From Sulfuricaulis sp. (lineage in GTDB: Bacteria > Pseudomonadota > Gammaproteobacteria > Acidiferrobacterales > Sulfurifustaceae): a DNA stretch of 64,000 nt. The notes under the pieces are model-generated. The model searched no databases. It had not been told where the DNA came from and saw only the letters and a list, made by a program, of their open reading frames with translations. The stretch spans positions 1 through 64,000 of the forward strand of contig NZ_JANLGY010000013.1 in NCBI RefSeq assembly GCF_024653915.1, written 5' to 3'. How positions within the stretch are numbered: position 1 is the first letter of the stretch; every line of letters begins with the position of its first letter. This document shows, piece after piece, positions 28,783 to 54,648 of this stretch. A program made the translations under genes and the position numbers.

Positions 28783-29390
28783 CCGCATCCGTCAAACGCG
28801 CTGCCGCGCGCCGGAAAATTCTTATGCTGGCGGCCTTGTTCGCCTTGCCCGTCATCGTCGCCTATGGGTTGTATTTCAGCGGCTGGCGTCCCGCCGCGTT
28901 CGGCAATCATGGCGAGCTGGTGCAGCCGGCGCGCCCGATCGTGGATGCCGCGCTAACGCTGCTCGACGGCAAGACCCTGCACTTCCGCGAGCTGCGCGGC
29001 AAATGGACGCTGATCGTGTTCAGCCCGGCCGAATGCCTCAGCCCCTGCGAGCGCAATCTGGTGAAAATGCGCCAGGTCATGGCCGCGCAGGGCCAGAATG
29101 CCGAGCGTGTCCAGAGTCTTATTGTAGTGACGGATGCTAAAGCGCGTGACTGGCTGAAGTATGCCATCAAGGATTATCCTGGCCTGCGCGCGGTCGTTGG
29201 CTCGTCGGAGGCGATGGAAGCGCTGGCGCGCCAGTTCGCACTGTCTGTCGGCAGCCCGCTCGACAACCTGAATCGCATTTATTTAGTCGACCCGCTGGGC
29301 AACTTCATGATGAGCTATCCTGCCGATGCCGATGGGAACGGCATTCGCAAGGACCTGGCGCGCCTGCTGCGCGTCTCGCGCATCGGTTGA
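28779..29390 (+). CDS. SCO-like thioredoxin-fold membrane protein
   Basis: A 203-residue protein with an N-terminal helix (about 13-34) and a thioredoxin-like periplasmic domain. LRGKWTLIVFSPAECLSPCERNL contains a CxxxC pair in the position of the SCO copper site. The end, RIYLVDPLGNFMMSYPADADGNGIRKDLARLLR, matches the usual SCO1/SenC end region. This type of protein is often encoded between SURF1 and ctaA/ctaB. It may deliver copper or reduce CuA cysteines; the second SCO protein at 30576 is the more canonical one. Confidence 0.8.
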   Translation: MTASVKRAAARRKILMLAALFALPVIVAYGLYFSGWRPAAFGNHGELVQPARPIVDAALTLLDGKTLHFRELRGKWTLIVFSPAECLSPCERNLVKMRQVMAAQGQNAERVQSLIVVTDAKARDWLKYAIKDYPGLRAVVGSSEAMEALARQFALSVGSPLDNLNRIYLVDPLGNFMMSYPADADGNGIRKDLARLLRVSRIG

Positions 29391-29489
29391 GATGGCGGAA
29401 ATACCGGAAATTTCAGGGTTTTTTCGGTGCGACCGGCTTGATCTGGGGCATACCATGTTTTTCCATACCCACGTAAAATAACCCGCCCA

Positions 29490-30440
29490 ATGGAACCCGC
29501 GAGCAAAATCGAATCCGTCAACACCGCCGCGAACCCGCGCCGGCTGCGTAGCCGCGCCGGCGAATATTATGAACTGACCAAGCCGCGCGTGGTCTCGTTG
29601 ATTGTCTTCACCGCCGTGGTGGGCATGTTTCTGTCGGTGCCGTCCGGTCTACCAGCGCTGCCCTTGCTGCTCGGGACGCTCGGTATCGCGCTCGCCGCCG
29701 GGTCCGCCGCCGCCATTAACCAGATTCTCGATCTGCGTTTCGATTCCGGCATGACGCGCACCAGCTTCCGTCCGTTGCCGACCGGCACGCTGACCACGCG
29801 CGAGGCGCTGATCTTCGCGTTGATCCTGGGTGTGGCCTCGATGGCTATTCTGGTGCTGTGGGTCAACATGCTCACTGCCGTGCTGACGTTCATTTCGCTC
29901 ATCGGTTACTCGATCGTCTACACCGTGTATCTCAAGCACGCCACGCCGCAGAATATCGTCATTGGTGGGGCCGCTGGCGCCGCGCCGCCGGTCCTCGGTT
30001 GGGCCGCCATTACCGGCGAAGTTACCTCCGATGCGCTGCTGCTGTTCCTGATCATCTTCCTGTGGACCCCGCCGCATTTTTGGGCGCTGGCGCTGTACCG
30101 CGAGAAGGAATACGCCAAGGTCGGTATCCCCATGCTGCCGGTCACCCATGGGCGCAAATTCACCCAGCTCCAGATTTTGCTCTATACCGTGCTGCTGGTA
30201 GCGGTGACGATCATGCCGTTTGCCACGCACATGAGCGGCTGGCTGTATCTCGTCGGCGCGGTGGTGCTGAACGCGGGCTTCCTGTATTACGCCGTGCGGC
30301 TGTATCGGAATTACAGCGATGAGCTTTCACGCAAGACTTTCCGCTACTCGATCAACTACCTCGCCCTGTTGTTCGCGCTGCTGCTGGTCGACCATTACCG
30401 CGTCTATATCCACGAGGCGCTGCAATCCGCGCTGTATTAA
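29490..30440 (+). CDS. ctaB: Protoheme IX farnesyltransferase (heme O synthase)
   Basis: A 316-residue, multi-helix UbiA-family prenyltransferase. [20 protein letters not shown] opens the catalytic core. The first Asp-rich motif is [16 protein letters not shown], then FRPLPTG, the second conserved loop [27 protein letters not shown], and [15 protein letters not shown] at the end. It makes heme O from heme B. The heme A synthase gene ctaA, usually just upstream, is absent: only 99 non-coding bases separate this gene from the SCO-like gene. Confidence 0.94.
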
Positions 30441-30451
30441 GAAAGATTGAA

Positions 30452-30550
30452 TAGACAGGATTTACAGGATTAAAACCAAGGCACGTTAATCTCTAATCTT
30501 GTTAATCTTGTTAATCTTGTTAATCTTGTTAATCCTGTAAGTCCTGTCCA
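30452..30550. repeat. Intergenic palindromic repeat, ACAGGATT family, copy 1
   Basis: The left arm GACAGGATTTACAGGATTAA faces a right arm containing four tandem TTAATCTTG 9-mers and then TTAATCCTGTAAGTCCTGTC. The right arm appears expanded compared with the copies at 45690 and 60798. It lies between ctaB and sco. Confidence 0.85.
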
Positions 30551-30575
30551 TTAATTGGTTTTTGTTTCTTTTTCC

Positions 30576-31172
30576 ATGAATAAACCCTGTTATTTACGAT
30601 CTCTGGTCTTTTTCCTGGTGGCATTGTTTATTGCCGCCTGCACGCCGGCGCCGACGTTCAAATCCATGGACATCAGCGGCGTGGAATGGGGCAGCGATTT
30701 CACGCTCACCGCGCACACCGGCAAGCCGGTCAGGGCCTCCGAATTCAGCGGAAAAGTCGTGATCATGTTCTTCGGCTACACCCACTGCCCGGATATCTGC
30801 GCGCCGACCCTGGTGAGGCTCGATCAGGTAATGAAGCGCCTTGGCGATGAAGCCAAGGATGTTCAAGTGCTGTTCGTCACGGTGGATCCCGAGCACGACA
30901 CCGTGAAACAACTGGCGGGCTTTATTCCTCCGTTTAATCCTTCCTTTATCGGCCTCACCGGCAGCGACAAGGAAATCGCCGCCGTTGCAAGCGAATACAA
31001 GGTGGCTTACGGCAAGAATCCCCAAAGCATGACCGGGAAGATTCTGGTGGACCATTCCACGGGGATTCTGGTCAAAGACAAAAAGGGGAAGCTACGGTTG
31101 CTGGTGAAAAATGATGTCGCGGTCGATGATCTTGAACATGATGTCAGGGTTTTGTTGAGAGAGAAGAATTAA
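30576..31172 (+). CDS. sco1: SCO1/SenC family copper chaperone, lipoprotein
   Basis: A 198-residue protein. ATG 30576 gives a lipoprotein signal ending IAAC. The thioredoxin-fold domain has FFGYTHCPDICAPTL (CxxxC copper ligands, about residue 73) and the distal histidine in ILVDHSTGILVKDKKG (about 157), as in Sco1. It loads the CuA centre of subunit II. An upstream ATG at 30555 adds seven residues before a signal sequence that is complete without them. Confidence 0.92.
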   Translation: MNKPCYLRSLVFFLVALFIAACTPAPTFKSMDISGVEWGSDFTLTAHTGKPVRASEFSGKVVIMFFGYTHCPDICAPTLVRLDQVMKRLGDEAKDVQVLFVTVDPEHDTVKQLAGFIPPFNPSFIGLTGSDKEIAAVASEYKVAYGKNPQSMTGKILVDHSTGILVKDKKGKLRLLVKNDVAVDDLEHDVRVLLREKN

Positions 31173-31202
31173 ATTCCGTTGCCCTCATTATCTTACATGT
31201 AG

Positions 31203-31234
31203 GGTGGGTTAGGCGCTTTTTGCCGTAACCCACC
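31203..31234. repeat. REP-like palindrome GGTGGGTTA/TAACCCACC
   Basis: Perfect 9-bp arms (31203-31211 and 31226-31234) surround GGCGCTTTTTGCCG. Motifs of this kind are frequent as REP-like elements in Gammaproteobacteria. It follows sco1 and could act as its terminator. Confidence 0.6.
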
Positions 31235-31306
31235 GAACAATCTGTTGTGTCGGCTTCGCCAATGATGAAAAGCTAATTGCGGGTTGCTCCGCCATGCACT
31301 CTGGGT

Positions 31307-31401
31307 GACTTTTGACCGAAGCCATCCCTGGCTTCGGCCCTGCGGACGCGCTGAAGCGCACCCAATTTTGTTCCCGACAAAATTGTGTTTCGGCAAAAGT
31401 C
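31307..31401. other. Cloverleaf-like nested inverted repeats
   Basis: The outer arms GACTTTTG-a-CCGAA (31307-31320) and TTCGGCAAAAGTC (31389-31401) enclose three hairpins: GAAGCCA/TGGCTTC (31318-31335), GCGC-TGAA-GCGC (31348-31359) and CAATTTTGT/ACAAAATTG (31363-31385, perfect 9 bp). This could be a structured RNA or a DNA element recognised by a recombinase. I do not recognise its family. Confidence 0.5.
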
Positions 31402-32031
31402 ACCAAAACCACTCCCCCCGGAGCCGCCGACCTTTCCCGCTATGTATCCCGCTCCGCGGGAAAGTCCAGGGCGCACATCCCTGTGCGCCCGTTCGCGCTG
31501 CCACTGGCAGCGCTCACCCTTGCGCTTCTCGCCCGCCTCGGCGCTCGCCTAACTCGCCGGGCGCTAGACAACGCGCCTCGGGCTCGATCAAAAGTCTCGC
31601 GACACCCCCGAGGCGGACTGCGATGCTCGGCGGCGGCTACGGGGTATGGAGCAACATCTTGCCCTGCCAAATTTGCACTTTGGTGGCCTTGCAGGGTTTG
31701 TCGAATCGGTTAATACTGCATCGCCATACCGACTTATGACCTAAGTTCATGTTGGCAAACAACTTATGGTCTTCTGGCCCCGCTAGGTTATACGCCACGG
31801 GTCCAAGTTACGTTGTGCGCCGGCCCTCGCTATAACGCGACAGGACTTCCCAGTCCCTCTCGCGTACTCGGGCACGGCGCGTTTGTTCTGCTGCGCAGGC
31901 CCCGGCCGTCCTGCGGCTGAGAAACGCCACAGTGACTCTACGCCTCGCGAAGCTCGGCTGCCGGGGACTACGCGCCATCGCTTCGCTCTCCCTGGCGCGC
32001 AGCGTACGTCAAAAAGTGACATCTAAATTAC

Positions 32032-32038
32032 GTTAGAG
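32032..32038 (+). other. Integron core site GTTAGAG at the start of cassette 1
   Basis: GTTAGAG fits the core-site pattern GTTRRRY in all but the last base. Its reverse complement CTCTAAC is exactly the inverse core at the start of the first attC (32398), as expected if cassette 1 begins at this point. No attC fold or attI element is evident just upstream. Confidence 0.65.
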
Positions 32039-32046
32039 ATCAAAAT

Positions 32047-32403
32047 ATGGCCGAGCCTTCTGATAGAGCATTCCAAGATAAAGTCGAATCAATATCTTTA
32101 TCCATAATCGGGTGTAGTTTTTTGGCAGGGGCTTTCATCGTTGGGTATCAATGTTTCCAGTGGCTAAAAACCGGTGTCTGGCCCGAATTGCCTCTCGTAT
32201 ATCTCTTCATCTGGTCACAAATAGACATATCTTCTATCTCTTATATGCAGTGGGAAGGAATAAAGAAAATACTCACATGGCTGTTAATAGAAACACCGCT
32301 TTCACTTTTTACTGTTGGGGTAGGTGCGGTAATTGGTGTTCTATTCAAAGAAGCATGTTTGACTTGGCAAGTACCCAACAAACCGACATCAAATGATCTC
32401 TAA
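32047..32403 (+). CDS. Cassette-encoded hypothetical membrane protein (cassette 1)
   Basis: An 118-residue protein of unknown family. It has two or three hydrophobic segments (about 17-35, 48-66, 75-98) and charged ends, so it is probably an inner-membrane protein. Its stop codon TAA lies inside the attC inverse core CTCTAAC, a typical gene-cassette layout, and the start is only 9 bp after the core site with no strong ribosome site. It is clearly more AT-rich than the surrounding chromosome, consistent with acquisition by integron recombination. Confidence 0.75.
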   Translation: MAEPSDRAFQDKVESISLSIIGCSFLAGAFIVGYQCFQWLKTGVWPELPLVYLFIWSQIDISSISYMQWEGIKKILTWLLIETPLSLFTVGVGAVIGVLFKEACLTWQVPNKPTSNDL

Positions 32404-32487
32404 CTTCGTGTTCGAGGCCGACGCGGTAAGCTGCCGCACCGTTTCTTGTTGGCGCCGTGGCCCGCGCGGCTCAACGCGGCGTTATGT
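32398..32487 (+). other. attC site 1 (90 bp)
   Basis: It begins with the inverse core CTCTAAC (32398-32404) and ends with the core GTTATGT (32481-32487). The internal sequence is imperfectly palindromic, with GGCTCAACGCGGC close to the 3' core as in known attC sites. The mismatch between its two outer cores is as expected for the junction of two different cassettes. Confidence 0.8.
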
Positions 32488-32506
32488 GTAAAAAAGGAAT
32501 TTAGAT

Positions 32507-33052
32507 ATGAGCTATATCAAACATACACTAATGATAATCCTGCTAATCTCATCAACGACAAATGCGGGCTGGGTTGATAAACAAGGCAATAAAATACCTG
32601 ATTCTGACAATATGAAATCAGCTGGTGATTTGATTGCACAGTTAGTTATTACAGACAACGAAGCACAGGTACTCAAAAACTGGAGCACACCATCGCAAAG
32701 CGTTTATTTTCCAACTGCTGACAAAATCGAAAGAAATAAAATAATTACAGCTTTTATTGTTTTCGGCGGCTGTGCTGTCGATGCTAATGGAAATTGTGAT
32801 CTAAGAATGCAAATCACAGTGTATCAACCGGACGGTAAAATATACTCAAAATTGCCAGTTATGGAGGTCTGGTCAGGTAAACCAGTGCCGCCAAATAGAA
32901 GTCTTGGCCTAAGTGTTGAGTATATGCGGATCATAATTGAGCCTGGCGAACAACTAGGGAAGTATAAAATCGACACTAAGGTTGTTGATAAAATAAGCAG
33001 TAATAGCATGATTCTTACATCACACTTTACGGCAGTAGAAGCAAATGAGTAA
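32507..33052 (+). CDS. Cassette-encoded hypothetical secreted protein (cassette 2)
   Basis: A 181-residue protein with an N-terminal signal peptide (TLMIILLISSTTNA, cleavage near residue 20). The soluble domain has a single Cys pair (GGCAVDANGNCDL) and a beta-rich look (MQITVYQPDGKIYSKLPVMEVW). A good ribosome site (AAAAAGGAATT) precedes the ATG 20 bp after the attC core. I do not recognise the family. It is strongly AT-rich relative to the host. A periplasmic or envelope-stress role is only a guess. Confidence 0.8.
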   Translation: MSYIKHTLMIILLISSTTNAGWVDKQGNKIPDSDNMKSAGDLIAQLVITDNEAQVLKNWSTPSQSVYFPTADKIERNKIITAFIVFGGCAVDANGNCDLRMQITVYQPDGKIYSKLPVMEVWSGKPVPPNRSLGLSVEYMRIIIEPGEQLGKYKIDTKVVDKISSNSMILTSHFTAVEANE

Positions 33053-33055
33053 AAC

Positions 33056-33127
33056 ACATAACAGGGCGCTCGTTCGGATGCAAACTACGCTGCGCTTCGT
33101 TTGCACCGCACAGCTTGGCCGTTAGGT
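33056..33127 (+). other. attC site 2 (72 bp)
   Basis: The inverse core ACATAAC (33056-33062) is the exact complement of the core that starts this cassette (GTTATGT at 32481). The 3' core is GTTAGGT (33121-33127). The centre holds GCAAAC...GTTTGC. Size, cores and symmetry match attC sites. Confidence 0.88.
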
Positions 33128-33177
33128 TGCCAAAAAATAGTGGCCACAATGAGCACAACGAATATCCAAATAGAAGG

Positions 33178-33681
33178 ATGAATATCCTTGGTTTCAACCT
33201 CAGCAATAGTGATCTTTGGCTCCTGGGAGCCGCTGGAGTTTGTCTTGCTTGGCTGGTTCAACATAGGCTTTCGTTCTGGCGAGAGCGCGAAGCTCGCCGG
33301 GCTGCCGCCTGCGTGAAATTTCAGAATTCCGTTATTACTATTCTTTCCGGTCTCTATCCAGTCCCTAGCGATTGGCCAGATGAGAAAATTACAATAATCA
33401 AAATTCTTGAAGGTCGGTTCCAAACCCTCCAAGCCGCAGTCGCCGAGTTCCGTACAAGTCTGCCTTGGTATAAAAAGTTCTTTTTCGACCGCGCTTGGCG
33501 CATATATCGTCTTGGCAAAGACGGGCGAGAAATTGACGGCCAGTACTACTGGCAGTATGTGCCGCACAAAGGAGACGGTATTGAACATGGAAGCTATTAC
33601 AAACATGACAATACGAATACATACAAAGATGACTTCAAGAAAAACGTTGGCCGTCTTCTCAACTATGCAAAGGCAACCTAA
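33178..33681 (+). CDS. Cassette-encoded hypothetical membrane-anchored protein (cassette 3)
   Basis: A protein of about 167 residues. A hydrophobic helix near the N-terminus (about 12-28, DLWLLGAAGVCLAWLV) is followed by a soluble alpha/beta part rich in aromatic residues (WRIYRLGKDGREIDGQYYWQY). The start at ATG 33178 follows AGAAGG. An in-frame TTG at 33115 lies before the cassette boundary and is rejected. The stop TAA lies within the inverse core ACCTAAC of the next attC. No family was recognised. Confidence 0.72.
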   Translation: MNILGFNLSNSDLWLLGAAGVCLAWLVQHRLSFWREREARRAAACVKFQNSVITILSGLYPVPSDWPDEKITIIKILEGRFQTLQAAVAEFRTSLPWYKKFFFDRAWRIYRLGKDGREIDGQYYWQYVPHKGDGIEHGSYYKHDNTNTYKDDFKKNVGRLLNYAKAT

Positions 33682-33742
33682 CCACCGCTTCCACGGGACG
33701 TCTGCGCTAACGCGCCGTCGCCCGTGAAGCTGGGCGTTAGAC
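33676..33742 (+). other. attC site 3 (67 bp), end of array
   Basis: The inverse core ACCTAAC (33676-33682) is the exact complement of the core starting this cassette (GTTAGGT at 33121). The 3' core is GTTAGAC (33736-33742). The inside has CTTCCACGGG...CCCGTGAAG arms. No further cassette follows; a palindromic repeat half-copy and a minus-strand gene come next. Confidence 0.87.
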
Positions 33743-33769
33743 GCTATCTACATACTTAGCTTTTTCACT

Positions 33770-33790
33770 TTCCCCGTGCTCCCCGTGGTT
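33770..33790. repeat. CCACGGGG-family repeat, half copy
   Basis: Only the right arm TTCCCCGTGCTCCCCGTGGTT is present, identical in type to the right arms at 41585 and 58243. It directly follows the cassette array. Confidence 0.6.
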
Positions 33791-33794
33791 CCAG

Positions 33795-34217
33795 TCAATT
33801 TTTAATGGGACCGGTGGAGGTCAACCGGCCCACGATCAATCCGTGGAAATAATCGGCTTCTGACTGGAAGCGCCAGCCAAGGTGTGTGCGGCAGTTCGCG
33901 CACAAGACGATGCGCCAGGCGTATCCCGCAAACCAGGTGAATTCCGCCGTTGATTCACCGACAACGGCGCAGCCGGTGGCCTCGCGATAACAGCCGATGT
34001 GATAGGTGATGCCGTGGGGATTGGCGAAGCGGTGTTCGTGCCCGCCCTGTACAGGGACGCGTTCGTCCTGATGCGTGATGAAGTGACGGCAGGCGGCGCA
34101 GAACAGGCGCTTTTCTTTTTCTGGTTCTATGTTCTCTTGTTGTTTAACCGTATGTTTATTGTCTTCCTCCGTCTGGGGATCGAAAAAAAGCAGGGTGGGG
34201 GCAAGCGCCATCGCCAT
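33795..34217 (-). CDS. CULT-domain (cereblon-like) zinc protein
   Basis: A 140-residue protein. Residues about 37-136 form a CULT domain, the thalidomide-binding fold of human cereblon. Zinc ligands are Cys40-x2-Cys43 and Cys106-x2-Cys109. The three cage tryptophans W95, W101 and W115 (EFTWFAGYAW...HLGWRF) have the same spacing as W380, W386 and W400 of cereblon. The N-terminal 30 residues are charged and probably flexible. Bacterial stand-alone CULT proteins exist, but their natural ligand is uncertain (pyrimidine- or cyclic imide-like compounds bind in vitro). It lies next to and in the same direction as a FIST sensor gene, 11 bp downstream of it. Confidence 0.85.
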   Translation of the reverse strand: MAMALAPTLLFFDPQTEEDNKHTVKQQENIEPEKEKRLFCAACRHFITHQDERVPVQGGHEHRFANPHGITYHIGCYREATGCAVVGESTAEFTWFAGYAWRIVLCANCRTHLGWRFQSEADYFHGLIVGRLTSTGPIKN

Positions 34218-34228
34218 GGCCGTTCCGC

Positions 34229-35344
34229 TCAGGAGAACAGGGTCAATACTCCGGTGAAGCCGTACAACCGGTTATGTGAGATTTCACCGTTGGCGAAAAA
34301 GCCCACCAGCGGGATGTCGCCCAGTTCCTGGCGGATGGCGCGCAATTCCGCCGAGTCTTCCCCAAACATGTGCACGCCGCGGCCAAGGCAGGAATAGTAA
34401 ACGCCGCCCTTGGGGCGGCCGACCAGGCGTGACTTTATGTCACGCAGCATGCGCAGCAGGTCTTCGTAGGCCGTGTTGATGTCGCGCCGGCAGAACATGA
34501 TAGTGTCCCCGGGATTCAGGTAGCCACCCACGGCCAGCAGCTTGTTCTCCGTGTCCACGCCCATCAGGTTGCGCACCACATAATCCCCGGTGTCCGATCC
34601 CTTGATGGGGAAACCCGCGAAGATGTATCCCGCGGCGCGCGACAGGTCACGCGCCAGGACCTCGCCCACTTCCTCGTTGAACACATCGAGCGCCGGCCGG
34701 TCGTCGATGCGGATGGCGATGTTGTTCTGGCATTCGGTGACCTGGTGTTTCTGACCCAGCGGCGAGCAGCCTTGCGTGTGCGCGGTGGCGACCGGCACTT
34801 TCGAGGAAAATACCACGCCCGACAGGCCGCCCTCGGTCAGGCCACCGGCGATCTGGAAATTCGGCCCGCGCGAAGAGCTCAGTCCGCCGACCAGGTAGCC
34901 GTCGTTGATGGCCTCGGCCAGCTCGGCGATGAAGGTTGGCGTTTTCGGATTGCGCGGATCGCCGTGTACCACGCCAAAGTGCGCATCAAATTTTTCGCAC
35001 CAGACACGGTGTTCGGCGAATTCATCGATATCGGCTTTGATTGCCGGGAATACGCGGAAACTGTCCGGCGGGAAGTCGGCGATCATCACACTGAGCGCGG
35101 GCTCGTCGTTGTATTCCTGCGAGGTGGCGCAGACCCCGACGCCGACGCTGCCGACCCAGTGAATAATGTCGGTCTGTTCTTTGAAAAATGTGAGGATGTT
35201 GGGCAGATCGGTGGCCAGAAGGTCGGTGACATAGAGAAAGCCGAGATTAGCCTCCGGAGGGACATTGCCGATCTGGGCCAGGCAGGCATTGGCGGCTAGC
35301 CGCCAGTCCGTGGCCGTGGCATGTGCCACGCGGAACATGTCCAT
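34229..35344 (-). CDS. FIST domain sensory protein
   Basis: A 371-residue protein with FIST_N (about 15-210: GFLYVTDLLATDLPNIL, VGSVGVGVCATSQEYNDEPAL) and FIST_C (about 220-360: DNRPALDVF-like IDDRPALDVFNEEVGEVL, YSCLGRGVHMFG, IPLVGFFANGEISHN). FIST proteins are proposed to sense small ligands such as amino acids. The start at 35344 follows AAGGGA at a good distance. A longer frame to 35401 lacks a ribosome site. Confidence 0.88.
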   Translation of the reverse strand: MDMFRVAHATATDWRLAANACLAQIGNVPPEANLGFLYVTDLLATDLPNILTFFKEQTDIIHWVGSVGVGVCATSQEYNDEPALSVMIADFPPDSFRVFPAIKADIDEFAEHRVWCEKFDAHFGVVHGDPRNPKTPTFIAELAEAINDGYLVGGLSSSRGPNFQIAGGLTEGGLSGVVFSSKVPVATAHTQGCSPLGQKHQVTECQNNIAIRIDDRPALDVFNEEVGEVLARDLSRAAGYIFAGFPIKGSDTGDYVVRNLMGVDTENKLLAVGGYLNPGDTIMFCRRDINTAYEDLLRMLRDIKSRLVGRPKGGVYYSCLGRGVHMFGEDSAELRAIRQELGDIPLVGFFANGEISHNRLYGFTGVLTLFS

Positions 35345-35454
35345 ATCAAATCCCTTGAACGAGGATGGGCTTAAGCCCGATGGGAGAGATAATATAGACA
35401 ATTGGATTGGGTTAGAACCCGCTCCCTCAAACCCCGAAATAAAAAGGAATTTTT

Positions 35455-36519
35455 ATGACCCGGCTGGTGCAAAAACGCTCACGCAAGACCGGTTTGCCGC
35501 CCGGCACCGCCGTGCACATCGGCGAGAAGAAAAGCGAACAGACGCGCATCCAGCTGTTGCATTACGACGCCGTGCAGGTGACGGAGAGGGAGCTTGAGGA
35601 CATCGAGGATGGCGAGAGTTTGCGCCCGGGAACGGGTGTGACCTGGGTGCATGTCACGGGTGTGCACGACGTGGCGTTGCTGGACAAGATCGGCCGCGGC
35701 TTCGGGCTTCACCCGCTGGTGCTGGAGGACATCTCGAACACCGACCAGCGTCCGAAGTTCGAGGATTACGGCGACTATATCTATGTCGTGCTCAAGATGC
35801 TGCACGACGGTCCATCCAGCCGCGACATCGAGGCGGAACAGGTGAGCGTCATTTTCGGCAAGGATTTCGTGTTGTCTTTCGAAGAGGCCGAGCCGACGGT
35901 TTTCGATCCGGTGCGTGAGCGTATCCGCGCCGGGCGTGCCCGGGTGCGCGAACGTGGCGCGGACTATCTTGCGTACAGCTTGCTGGATGCGGTGGTGGAC
36001 AATTATTTTTCACTGCTGGAACAGGTCGGTGAGCGCATGGAGCTACTCCAGGATGAACTGCTGACGTTGCCGACGCCCCGGATGCAGCAGAGCCTGCATC
36101 GGCTCCGGCGCGAGATGGTGCTGCTGCGCAAATCGGTATGGCCCCTGCGCGAGGTGCTGAGCGGGTTGGAGCGTGGCCGATCCGGCCTTATCAGGGAAGA
36201 TACGTATATATATCTGCGGGACGTGTACGACCACACGGTGCACGTGATCGATACCATTGAAACCTTTCGTGACATGATTGGCGGTCTGATGGACATCTAT
36301 TTGATGAGCCTGAGCAATCGCATGAACGAGATCATGAAGGTGCTAACGATCATTGCCACTATCTTCATGCCGCTGTCTTTTATCGCCAGCCTTTATGGCA
36401 TGAATTTCCGTCACATGCCCGAGCTGGACTGGCCCTGGGGCTATCCGCTGGTGTTGCTGCTGATGGTGGCGGTGACCGGAGGCTTGCTGCTGTTCTTCCG
36501 GCGGAAGAAATGGATCTAA
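35455..36519 (+). CDS. corA: CorA-type magnesium/cobalt transporter
   Basis: A 354-residue protein. A cytoplasmic funnel domain (about 1-285) contains HPLVLEDISNTDQRPKFEDYGDYIYVVLKML. Two C-terminal membrane helices follow, the first ending with the signature YGMN (in SLYGMNFRHMPEL) and the second about 325-345. The C-terminus RRKKW is basic, as usual. It forms a pentameric Mg2+ channel in the inner membrane. It is convergent with the rsbS-like gene. Confidence 0.94.
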   Translation: MTRLVQKRSRKTGLPPGTAVHIGEKKSEQTRIQLLHYDAVQVTERELEDIEDGESLRPGTGVTWVHVTGVHDVALLDKIGRGFGLHPLVLEDISNTDQRPKFEDYGDYIYVVLKMLHDGPSSRDIEAEQVSVIFGKDFVLSFEEAEPTVFDPVRERIRAGRARVRERGADYLAYSLLDAVVDNYFSLLEQVGERMELLQDELLTLPTPRMQQSLHRLRREMVLLRKSVWPLREVLSGLERGRSGLIREDTYIYLRDVYDHTVHVIDTIETFRDMIGGLMDIYLMSLSNRMNEIMKVLTIIATIFMPLSFIASLYGMNFRHMPELDWPWGYPLVLLLMVAVTGGLLLFFRRKKWI

Positions 36520-53567: not shown

Positions 53568-53933
53568 ATGGCAGTTCAAGATAGCGAAATGATTCGACTG
53601 ACGAGAGCATTAAACGCCTGGGGGACTTCTGATTTTGAAGGCGTCCTCAAGGAAGAAATTGCGCAAATGGATGCAGAGCAACTTCCCTTGCAACAGGGAT
53701 TGTCTGCGGGCAGCTCTGTTGTTGACGGTCAGCGCCAGACGATGATTATCGGTGTTTCCGAGGCCGCCGGTTTTATCCGCGTGAAGGCCGGTATTTTTTA
53801 TTCAGGAATAATCGGGGGTTGCAGTTGTGCCGATGACCCCACGCCCGTCAATGAAGAAAACGAGTACTGCGTAGTACAATTTGACATCAACAAGCAAACG
53901 GCCGAGACGACCGTCGCGCTTCTGGCAGAATAG
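53568..53933 (+). CDS. Hypothetical protein, 121 aa
   Basis: A small soluble acidic protein with no recognised family. It has a helical N-terminus ([26 protein letters not shown]), then a beta-rich part with a Cys pair GGCSCADDP and the ending [19 protein letters not shown]. It looks coding: the composition matches its neighbours and the stop lies 13 bp before the yebC start. The start is uncertain: ATG 53568 or 53532 in the same frame, both with weak ribosome sites. Confidence 0.65.
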
Positions 53934-53946
53934 CGGGGATGTAAAC

Positions 53947-54648
53947 ATGGGCGCGCAGTGGAAAACAAAAAACAAAGAAGTGGCGGCCAACGCCAAGGGC
54001 CGCATCTTCACCAAGTTATCCCGGGAAATCATGGTGGCCGCACGCGCGGGCGCCGACCCAGACATGAATCCGCGATTGCGTCTGGCGGTGGAGCAGGCGA
54101 AAAAGGCCTCCATGCCCAAAGACACCGTCGAGCGCGCCATCAAAAAGGGCGCCGGTTTGCTTGACGCCGGGGTGAGCTTCGAGAAGCTCACTTACGAAGG
54201 TTTTGCGCCGCACAAGGTTCCCGTGATTGTTGAGTGCCTGACGGACAACGTGAACCGCACGGTCACCAATATTCGCATCCTGTTTCGCAAAGGGCAGCTC
54301 GGCAACTCGGGATCGGTTGCCTGGGATTTTGACTATCTCGGGATGATTGAAGCCAGCCCAGCATCCGCCGGAGCGGACGCGGAGTCCGCCGCCATTGAAG
54401 CCGGCGCCCGTGATCTGGAGCCCGGCGAAAATGGCGCCACGCTGTTTCTGACCGAACCAACAGATCTGGATGCGGTGTCGCGTGCCTTGCCGAAGCATGG
54501 ATTTGTCGTGCAGTCGGCCCAATTGGGTTACCGACCCAAGAATCCCGTGACACTAGGGGACGCGGAGCGTGCCGAAGTCGAGGCGTTTCTGGAAGCGGTC
54601 GATGCCGATGATGATGTGCAAAAAGTATTTCCGGGGCTGGCCGGTTAG
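53947..54648 (+). CDS. yebC: YebC/PmpR family (DUF28) protein
   Basis: A 233-residue protein. It has [75 protein letters not shown] and [14 protein letters not shown], the three-domain YebC fold. The family acts on transcription or on ribosomes stalled at proline stretches. It begins GAQWK where most YebC begin AGHSKW, marking a divergent (YeeN-like) branch. ATG 53947 is chosen because the conserved N-terminus starts there. Confidence 0.9.

Follow-up and report, generated by a model that had tools for sequence, protein, structure and literature searches.

A Sulfuricaulis cassette array without an adjoining integrase probably begins at a solo attI, one of several dispersed in the genome

The cassette array and the unit at its head

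The window analysed here is a stretch of 64,000 nucleotides of contig NZ_JANLGY010000013.1 (G000:C13:1-64000) from a Sulfuricaulis genome, G000, which amounts to 2.73 Mb in 31 contigs with a stated completeness of 99.78%. Between sco and a Yippee/CULT-like gene, the window carries an array (32032-33742) in which three small open reading frames (ORFs) alternate with three attC sites, all on the forward strand. Cassette gene 1 (32047..32403), encoding 118 amino acids (aa) with hydrophobic stretches, is followed by attC1 (32398..32487), and gene 2 (32507..33052), encoding 181 aa with a signal-like N terminus, by attC2 (33056..33127). Gene 3 (33178..33681) encodes 167 aa with a hydrophobic N terminus when read from the chosen start, ATG 33178 (the ORF is open from 33115, the form used in the searches), and is followed by attC3 (33676..33742), the last site. 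Read from their sequences, the three products would be membrane or exported proteins. As the first-pass annotation had it, they belong to no recognised family: the Pfam search returned a single unusable match (E 0.31), the NCBIfam search none, and against the loci that we had fetched the proteins matched only themselves.

The cores that open the cassettes, GTTAGAG (32032), GTTATGT and GTTAGGT, are the reverse complements of CTCTAAC, ACATAAC and ACCTAAC at the cassettes' own attC. The core rule, by which the 5' core complements the inverse core of the cassette's own attC, thus holds exactly in all three window cassettes, and the stop codons of genes 1 and 3 lie within the inverse core (that of gene 2 lies 3 nt before it); both points had been read correctly in the first-pass annotation. 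The fold that it had proposed to check was also found, since each bottom strand, when its R-box pairs are imposed, forms stems of the R and L types whose 3' arm has unpaired bases, with attC2 the least regular of the three. Under free folding compared with shuffled sequences, the signal is weak for attC1 (z -1.05) and attC2 (z -1.45) and clear for attC3 (z -3.59). Two attC models were used: R2, built with the window attC and two other sites of G000, and R3, whose 15 attC come from sister and related genomes and none from G000, which makes it a non-circular test. R3 ranked the three attC first to third in the window (E 2.2e-8, 2.4e-5 and 1.4e-3), with the next match at E 0.14, while an Rfam search of 29000-36000 gave no match at E up to 5. 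We infer that the R' core of attC3, GTTAGAC, would be the former right half of an attI.

With at least two attC and no adjoining intI, the array is a cluster of attC sites lacking an integron integrase (CALIN); a complete integron, with intI beside attI, it is not. The first-pass annotation had seen no attI. An attI-type unit is present all the same and ends at the first core, interrupted by a 194-bp insert. When the 871 bp upstream of the array were compared with G000 by blastn, the last ~30 bases, up to the first core, recurred elsewhere, and five full-length copies of a ~157-bp unit (family C) were found in the genome outside the window. Each ends in TTACGTTRG or a mutated form of it, and the gene that comes next differs from copy to copy. 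In the window the unit occupies 31687-31810 and 32005-32036 on the forward strand. Its left part (31687..31810) runs from a sharp left end, CTTGCAGGGTTTG, through the second direct repeat and matches positions 2-124 of the 158 of R1, our sequence model of the unit (E 3.2e-21). Its right part (32005..32036) comprises the inverse L box GTGACATCTAA and the R core GTTAG, at which cassette 1 begins, and matches R1 positions 125-156 (E 0.004 alone).

The 3' part of the unit reads AGGTTAGACGTCAC-GGGGCC-AGGTTATACGTCAG-AAWGTGACGTCTAA-ATTAC-GTTAGGC, that is, two direct copies of the motif TTAKACGTCA, an inverse copy and the core. This is the layout of attI1, in which the direct repeats have an integrase-binding role. 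The core in first position, the inverse L box and the extra direct repeats that mark an attI are all found, although in the window they are split by the insert. The insert itself (31811..32004, without assigned strand) has nearly inverted ends, CGTTGTGCGCC / GGCGCGCAGCG, and a second copy that is 88% identical at G000:C26:36101-36295, together with a shorter partial copy at C5:2590-2688. In appearance it resembles a miniature inverted-repeat transposable element (MITE), with no evident target duplication.

The unit was compared with the regions upstream of 20 intI genes of relatives. Its last 61 nt aligned best to the region in G016, a genome of the same family (L010; score 32, equalled by 0 of 300 resampled sequences), the aligning part being ~37 nt at the 3' end of the unit. 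GTTAAGC closes the G016 site and GCTTAAC opens the first attC there; because this core obeys the rule, the family-C unit aligns to a genuine attI. A score of 30 in G089 (L013) beat 300 of 300 resampled sequences but lay out of register, p was 0.013 for G007 (L022, in register) and for G014 (L008, a different part) and 0.047 for L027, and the other 15 regions gave no significant match. The pattern CGTCTA-N6-GTTRG, chosen after the sites of G004, G005, G007 and G078 had been viewed, was matched upstream of intI at 8 of 8 scored bases in five of the 20 (L009 in G020, L012 in G005, L018 in G010, L022 in G007 and L023 in G004), with 0 of 200 mononucleotide shuffles as good at each, and at 7 of 8 bases in four more (p 0 to 0.025).

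Solo attI-type sites across the genome and the genus

The first-pass annotation had described a single CALIN. The class assignment stands, but the scope is larger, the array being one of about fifteen attC clusters in G000. With R2, 28 attC were found at E<=0.01 in 15 clusters (by our own grouping; five of the 28 are in the model). An attI-type core opens ten of the 15 (in one of them it is mutated), and the inverse L box stands 6 nt from it, the spacing seen in intI-linked attI. Family C heads the window cluster and those at C5, C9, C13:112-116 kb and C8 (the mutated core), and a sixth unit, at C11, stands without attC. Family A, which resembles the intI-linked attI of G005, heads the clusters at C6 and C5:~41 kb; family B, which resembles that of G007, heads those at C13:263.8 kb and C30. 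The C4 cluster is headed by a site like that of G014.

Families A and B have intI-linked copies, in G005 and G007 respectively; for family C, a similar attI is found in G016. When the genus was searched with the two intI-linked sites, solo copies of family A were found in G000, G001, G005, G006, G007 and G008, and of family B in G000, G001, G005 and G007. R1 was searched in 60 genomes, under stricter filters than for sets of up to 40 genomes, and located family C at 24 places (26 matches, two places being split in two) in five of the nine Sulfuricaulis genomes: six in G000, seven in G006, five each in G007 and G008, and one in G001. None was found in the 51 genomes outside the genus. An exact 20-base pattern of the unit occurs in seven public contigs, of which four are Sulfuricaulis, two Candidatus Muproteobacteria and one Bathyarchaeota; in the last (L083) no direct repeats could be seen by eye, and the match was taken as chance. 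The same exact pattern had 0 matches in viral contigs.

The cores of family C were analysed in the 22 copies that retain the 3' end, after two fragments had been dropped. In 15 of the 22, a copy's 7-base core recurs as its reverse complement within 1.7 kb downstream, compared with a mean of 3.8 and a maximum of 11 in 5000 permutations. The complementary core starts an attC in 13 of the 22, namely at 12 R2 matches with E<=0.03, six of which had been used to build R2, and at a truncated site read by eye at C9; at C11 and G006_C118 it falls within coding sequence and not at an attC. Of the seven copies that lack a complementary core, the copy's own core is mutated or unreadable in four, and another two are near the end of a contig. 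GTT stands at the core in 18 of the 22, though the copies were located by a motif that includes the core. In family A, 6 of 12 copies likewise have an exact complementary core at a clear attC, as do 6 of 7 in family B (intI-linked copies counted), and two further family-A matches are not clear attC. Downstream of the C11 unit (L042, G000:C11:2800-4600) lies an ORF resembling CheB methylesterase (PF01339, E 5.4e-41), and no attC was found there.

Copies at different loci also share a left end. Mean column identity rises there from 0.44 to 0.94 in 13 of 22 family-C copies and from 0.39 to 0.79 in 6 of 7 copies of family B. In 12 copies of family A it rises from 0.26 to 0.64 and then drops back before the attI, and in G005 the left end of this family is found immediately 5' of where intI starts. 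A CTGT-N8-ACAG box, which we take to be a LexA site, is kept in the intI-linked family-A copy and at C6 and is absent from three other solo copies checked.

In G005, which is assembled as one contig, a single intI reaches E<=1e-60; it lies at 434 kb. Solo attI were found at 0.82, 1.98, 2.18 and 2.23 Mb, and every one has an attC that obeys the rule. Seven of the 18 attC listed among the 20 of G005 lie beside intI, ten at solo attI and one elsewhere. Outside the family, G020 has a second attI copy, without intI, and a rule-obeying attC 652 bp on.

Two features accompany the units. A GC-rich dispersed repeat (31194..31686, without assigned strand; the window match in the search for it is a self-match) lies beside the window unit, and pieces of it occur at many places in G000, with and without attI. 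This composite repeat precedes about half of the family-C units, and inverted copies lie downstream of the arrays at C13a, at its orthologue G006_C155, at G008_C85 and, weakly, at G006_C118. We considered the repeat as a mobilising element and rejected it, since it stands before only about half of the family-C copies; as for families A and B, a piece was found at C13d only, among eight loci. At L077 (G008:C48:39646-39683) the first ~40 bases of a family-C unit are fused directly to an attC-like sequence, which by its sequence appears to be a deletion or rearrangement product.

Orthologous loci and integrase genes

Eight G000 loci were compared with sister genomes in ten comparisons. At five loci the homology runs through the attI, breaks off 3-7 bases beyond the first core base and is found again after the array. 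The intervals in G000 and the sister measure 2.3 vs 0.9 kb (C5b/G007), 0.9 vs 3.2 kb (C6/G001), 4.0 vs 0.7 kb (C9/G008), 1.1 vs 2.2 kb (C11/G008) and 4.1 vs 1.4 kb (C13a/G006). The upstream host flank is homologous at C5b, C6, C9 and C11, and R2 detected attC in the intervals of both species at C5b, C6 and C13a. Homology resumes at or near the last core at C5b and at C6 compared with G006, and inside the last attC at C13a, as also at C9 if its weak last site (E 0.32) is real. Between the six compared intervals tblastx gave no match at 1e-4, and blastn gave short matches (67 and 42 bases) in two of them. In the remaining comparisons, the alignment of C6 with G007_C7 and G006_C37 is confined to the flanks, and only upstream homology was reached at C13d, C30 and C5. 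One further locus (L154, G000:C13:232000-239500) has two attC and no recognisable attI; its flanks match family-C-bearing loci in G007 (C58) and G008 (C87), and the platform may therefore have been lost there.

The host flanks of the window array are sco (SCO1/SenC; 30576..31172, forward strand; Pfam PF02630, E 2e-42), matched in seven of the nine genomes of the genus and not found in G006 and G008, and the Yippee/CULT-like gene (33795..34217, reverse strand), which has a Pfam PF03226 match under its cut-off (E 1.8e-4) and synteny. The first-pass annotation had proposed a comparison of this gap with sister strains, and its reading survives it: in the four sisters with both flanks (G003, G004, G005 and G007), none of the array is there. 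The gap measures 136 bp in G003, holds another insert in G004, and in G005 and G007 contains genes that we named by eye as peroxiredoxin-like and VIT-like. G001 has peroxiredoxin-like and VIT-like genes after sco and then other sequence, and the contig of G002 ends in the repeat. Given this absence, the window platform was either gained in this lineage or lost in the others.

Among the nine Sulfuricaulis genomes, intI over the TIGR02249 cut-off was found in three (G004, G005 and G007). None was found in G000, and hence none in the window, as the first-pass annotation had stated, with the limit that a copy could lie in a gap of the 31-contig assembly. Below the cut-off, the search of G000 ranked highest two ORFs of 304-308 aa, which we regard as other tyrosine recombinases, and one of 97 aa at C4. 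The C4 ORF shares 44-59% identity with stretches of the IntI of seven relatives within residues 12-96 (tblastn E down to 3.6e-8). This remnant of the intI N terminus (G000:C4:29810-30111) is divergent from the G014-like attI-type site with its one cassette and one attC, and by its sequence C4 appears to be a decayed integron elsewhere in the same genome. In G005, intI lies just past the orthologue of the window gene at 53881-54648, presumably yebC-like. Synteny between G000 and G005 stops at 54641, no intI trace lies beyond, and tblastx detected no intI relic at this end of the window (54-64 kb). The intI locus may have been lost or rearranged in G000, or gained in G005.

Competing explanations and relation to known systems

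Given cassettes with attC, an attI-type unit at the first core, no intI over the cut-off in G000, attI of at least three families repeated at many places in the genus, and content that differs between species at orthologous solo attI, we consider it probable that the window array is seated at a solo attI, one of several dispersed platforms served by an integrase in trans or since lost. The first-pass annotation had named seeding in trans and a relic as the options; these are the right alternatives, and the platform data now bear on both. In such a scheme, an integron integrase made elsewhere in the cell would act on the platforms, and the intI remnant at C4 suggests that it has since been lost from this lineage. 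The integrase would pair the folded bottom strand of the attC of a circular cassette with the platform attI, and the cassette would be inserted between G and TT of the core. The attI units would reach new places by a copying or transposition process, which is the weakest step. With intI gone and the attI split by the insert, the window array is probably now frozen.

Several observations weigh against this reading. No attI was found at the window site in sisters, and the putative footprints of attI recombination (different content from the core onward) were seen at other loci only. The sister contig at C13a begins at the unit, so that the upstream flank is missing there, and R2 detected attC only in G000 at C9 and only in the sister at C11; these one-sided attC at two of five loci, together with the missing flank, lower the odds of this reading and of its stronger form given below, and raise those of decay from complete integrons. 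The change of content at each locus could predate the loss of intI. Nine of the 22 family-C copies have no rule-obeying attC, and three of these are not accounted for by core mutation or a contig edge. Five of the 15 clusters (C13:235 kb, C16, C20, C23 and C24) have no recognised attI. As for the unit itself, no intI-linked family-C copy was found in the genus genomes examined, only G016 and G007 among the 20 intI loci resemble it in register (two more do so out of register), and at the remaining eleven of the 20 the pattern CGTCTA-N6-GTTRG is weaker or at chance, G016 included. A promoter scan of one family-C copy gave no promoter-like site, and the idea that the unit's left end carries a promoter was dropped.

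A stronger form of the idea, which we put forward tentatively as possible but somewhat less than even in likelihood, is an integron distributed over the genome. Here ~150-bp solo attI units, each with a fixed left end and with the attI core as its right end, would themselves be mobile, and one trans-acting integrase would fill many sites in Sulfuricaulis; perhaps the same holds in a second family of the order, represented by G020.

A less likely account, to which we give roughly one chance in four, is that each solo attI once had its own intI, that the cassettes turned over then and that intI was later deleted. The C4 locus, where an attI-type site and one attC accompany a 97-aa intI remnant, fits such decay, as does the left end of family A, which lies just where an intI deletion might leave it. 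Traces of this kind were not found at the other loci searched: the 15 other G000 stretches hold no significant intI-like sequence (best E 0.35), and a search with seven IntI proteins gave no match at E 0.01 in 36 stretches (some overlapping) fetched from the solo loci of sisters. Left ends shared between different loci, in 13 of 22 copies of family C and 6 of 7 of family B, are not expected of independent deletions, and two species without a local intI hold different cassettes at the same locus.

It is very improbable that the integrase inserted the cassettes off target at non-classical sites (attG, any G-TT) and that the upstream repeat is coincidental. Such insertion has been reported, according to the accessible text of PMC12901181 and PMC12444791, and the five clusters without a recognised attI would suit it, but the other 10 of 15 begin at an attI-type core with an inverse L box 6 nt away. 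Least credible of all is an ordinary MITE-like element unrelated to integrons, beside which cassettes inserted by chance: the unit is short, repeated, of unexplained mobility and joined to the GC-rich repeat in about half of its copies, but GTT at the core, complementary attC in 13 copies, the alignment with the bona fide attI of G016 and the like behaviour of families A and B, which resemble intI-linked attI, all speak against it.

Compared with known systems, the arrays resemble CALINs in being attC clusters without a neighbouring intI, but most of them begin at attI-type sites, of three families, and some orthologous loci have changed content. They share the attI layout, core rule and attC arrays of sedentary chromosomal integrons, of which G005 and G007 have the full set of intI, attI and cassettes, and differ in their solo sites without intI and the many platforms per genome. 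Loot et al. reportedly described cassette insertion at attG in 2024. There too an integrase places cassettes away from the integron, at sites that are non-classical, whereas the site here, a repeated unit, is laid out as an attI. Cassettes landing at attG are cited in the accessible parts of PMC12901181 and PMC12444791. The delta-attI gene cassettes of mobile integrons also carry attI away from its usual place, and the displaced attI is still a recombination substrate (PMC12901181, in the part available); there, the attI-type sites belong to cassettes of mobile integrons, whereas here attI heads separate chromosomal arrays. The accessible text of PMC12444791 further states that CALIN positions are relatively conserved across Xanthomonas species and that CALINs can be mobilised in trans. 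In a literature search that covered neither most subscription papers nor any bioRxiv preprints, no paper on solo or dispersed attI platforms turned up, nor any account of solo attI heading CALINs in several families with changed cargo at orthologous loci.

IntegronFinder detects attI only for class 1, according to the accessible part of PMC9024848, so that platforms of the present kind would be listed as plain CALINs; as far as its available text goes, the IntegronFinder 2.0 survey counted 2961 CALINs and 2760 complete integrons, about equal numbers. G005, with one intI and four distant solo attI on a single contig, makes service in trans directly testable. If many CALINs begin at solo attI that still exchange cassettes through an integrase elsewhere, the integron would be a genome-wide system and not a single locus, cassettes could reach many positions on the chromosome, and the platforms would escape current software.

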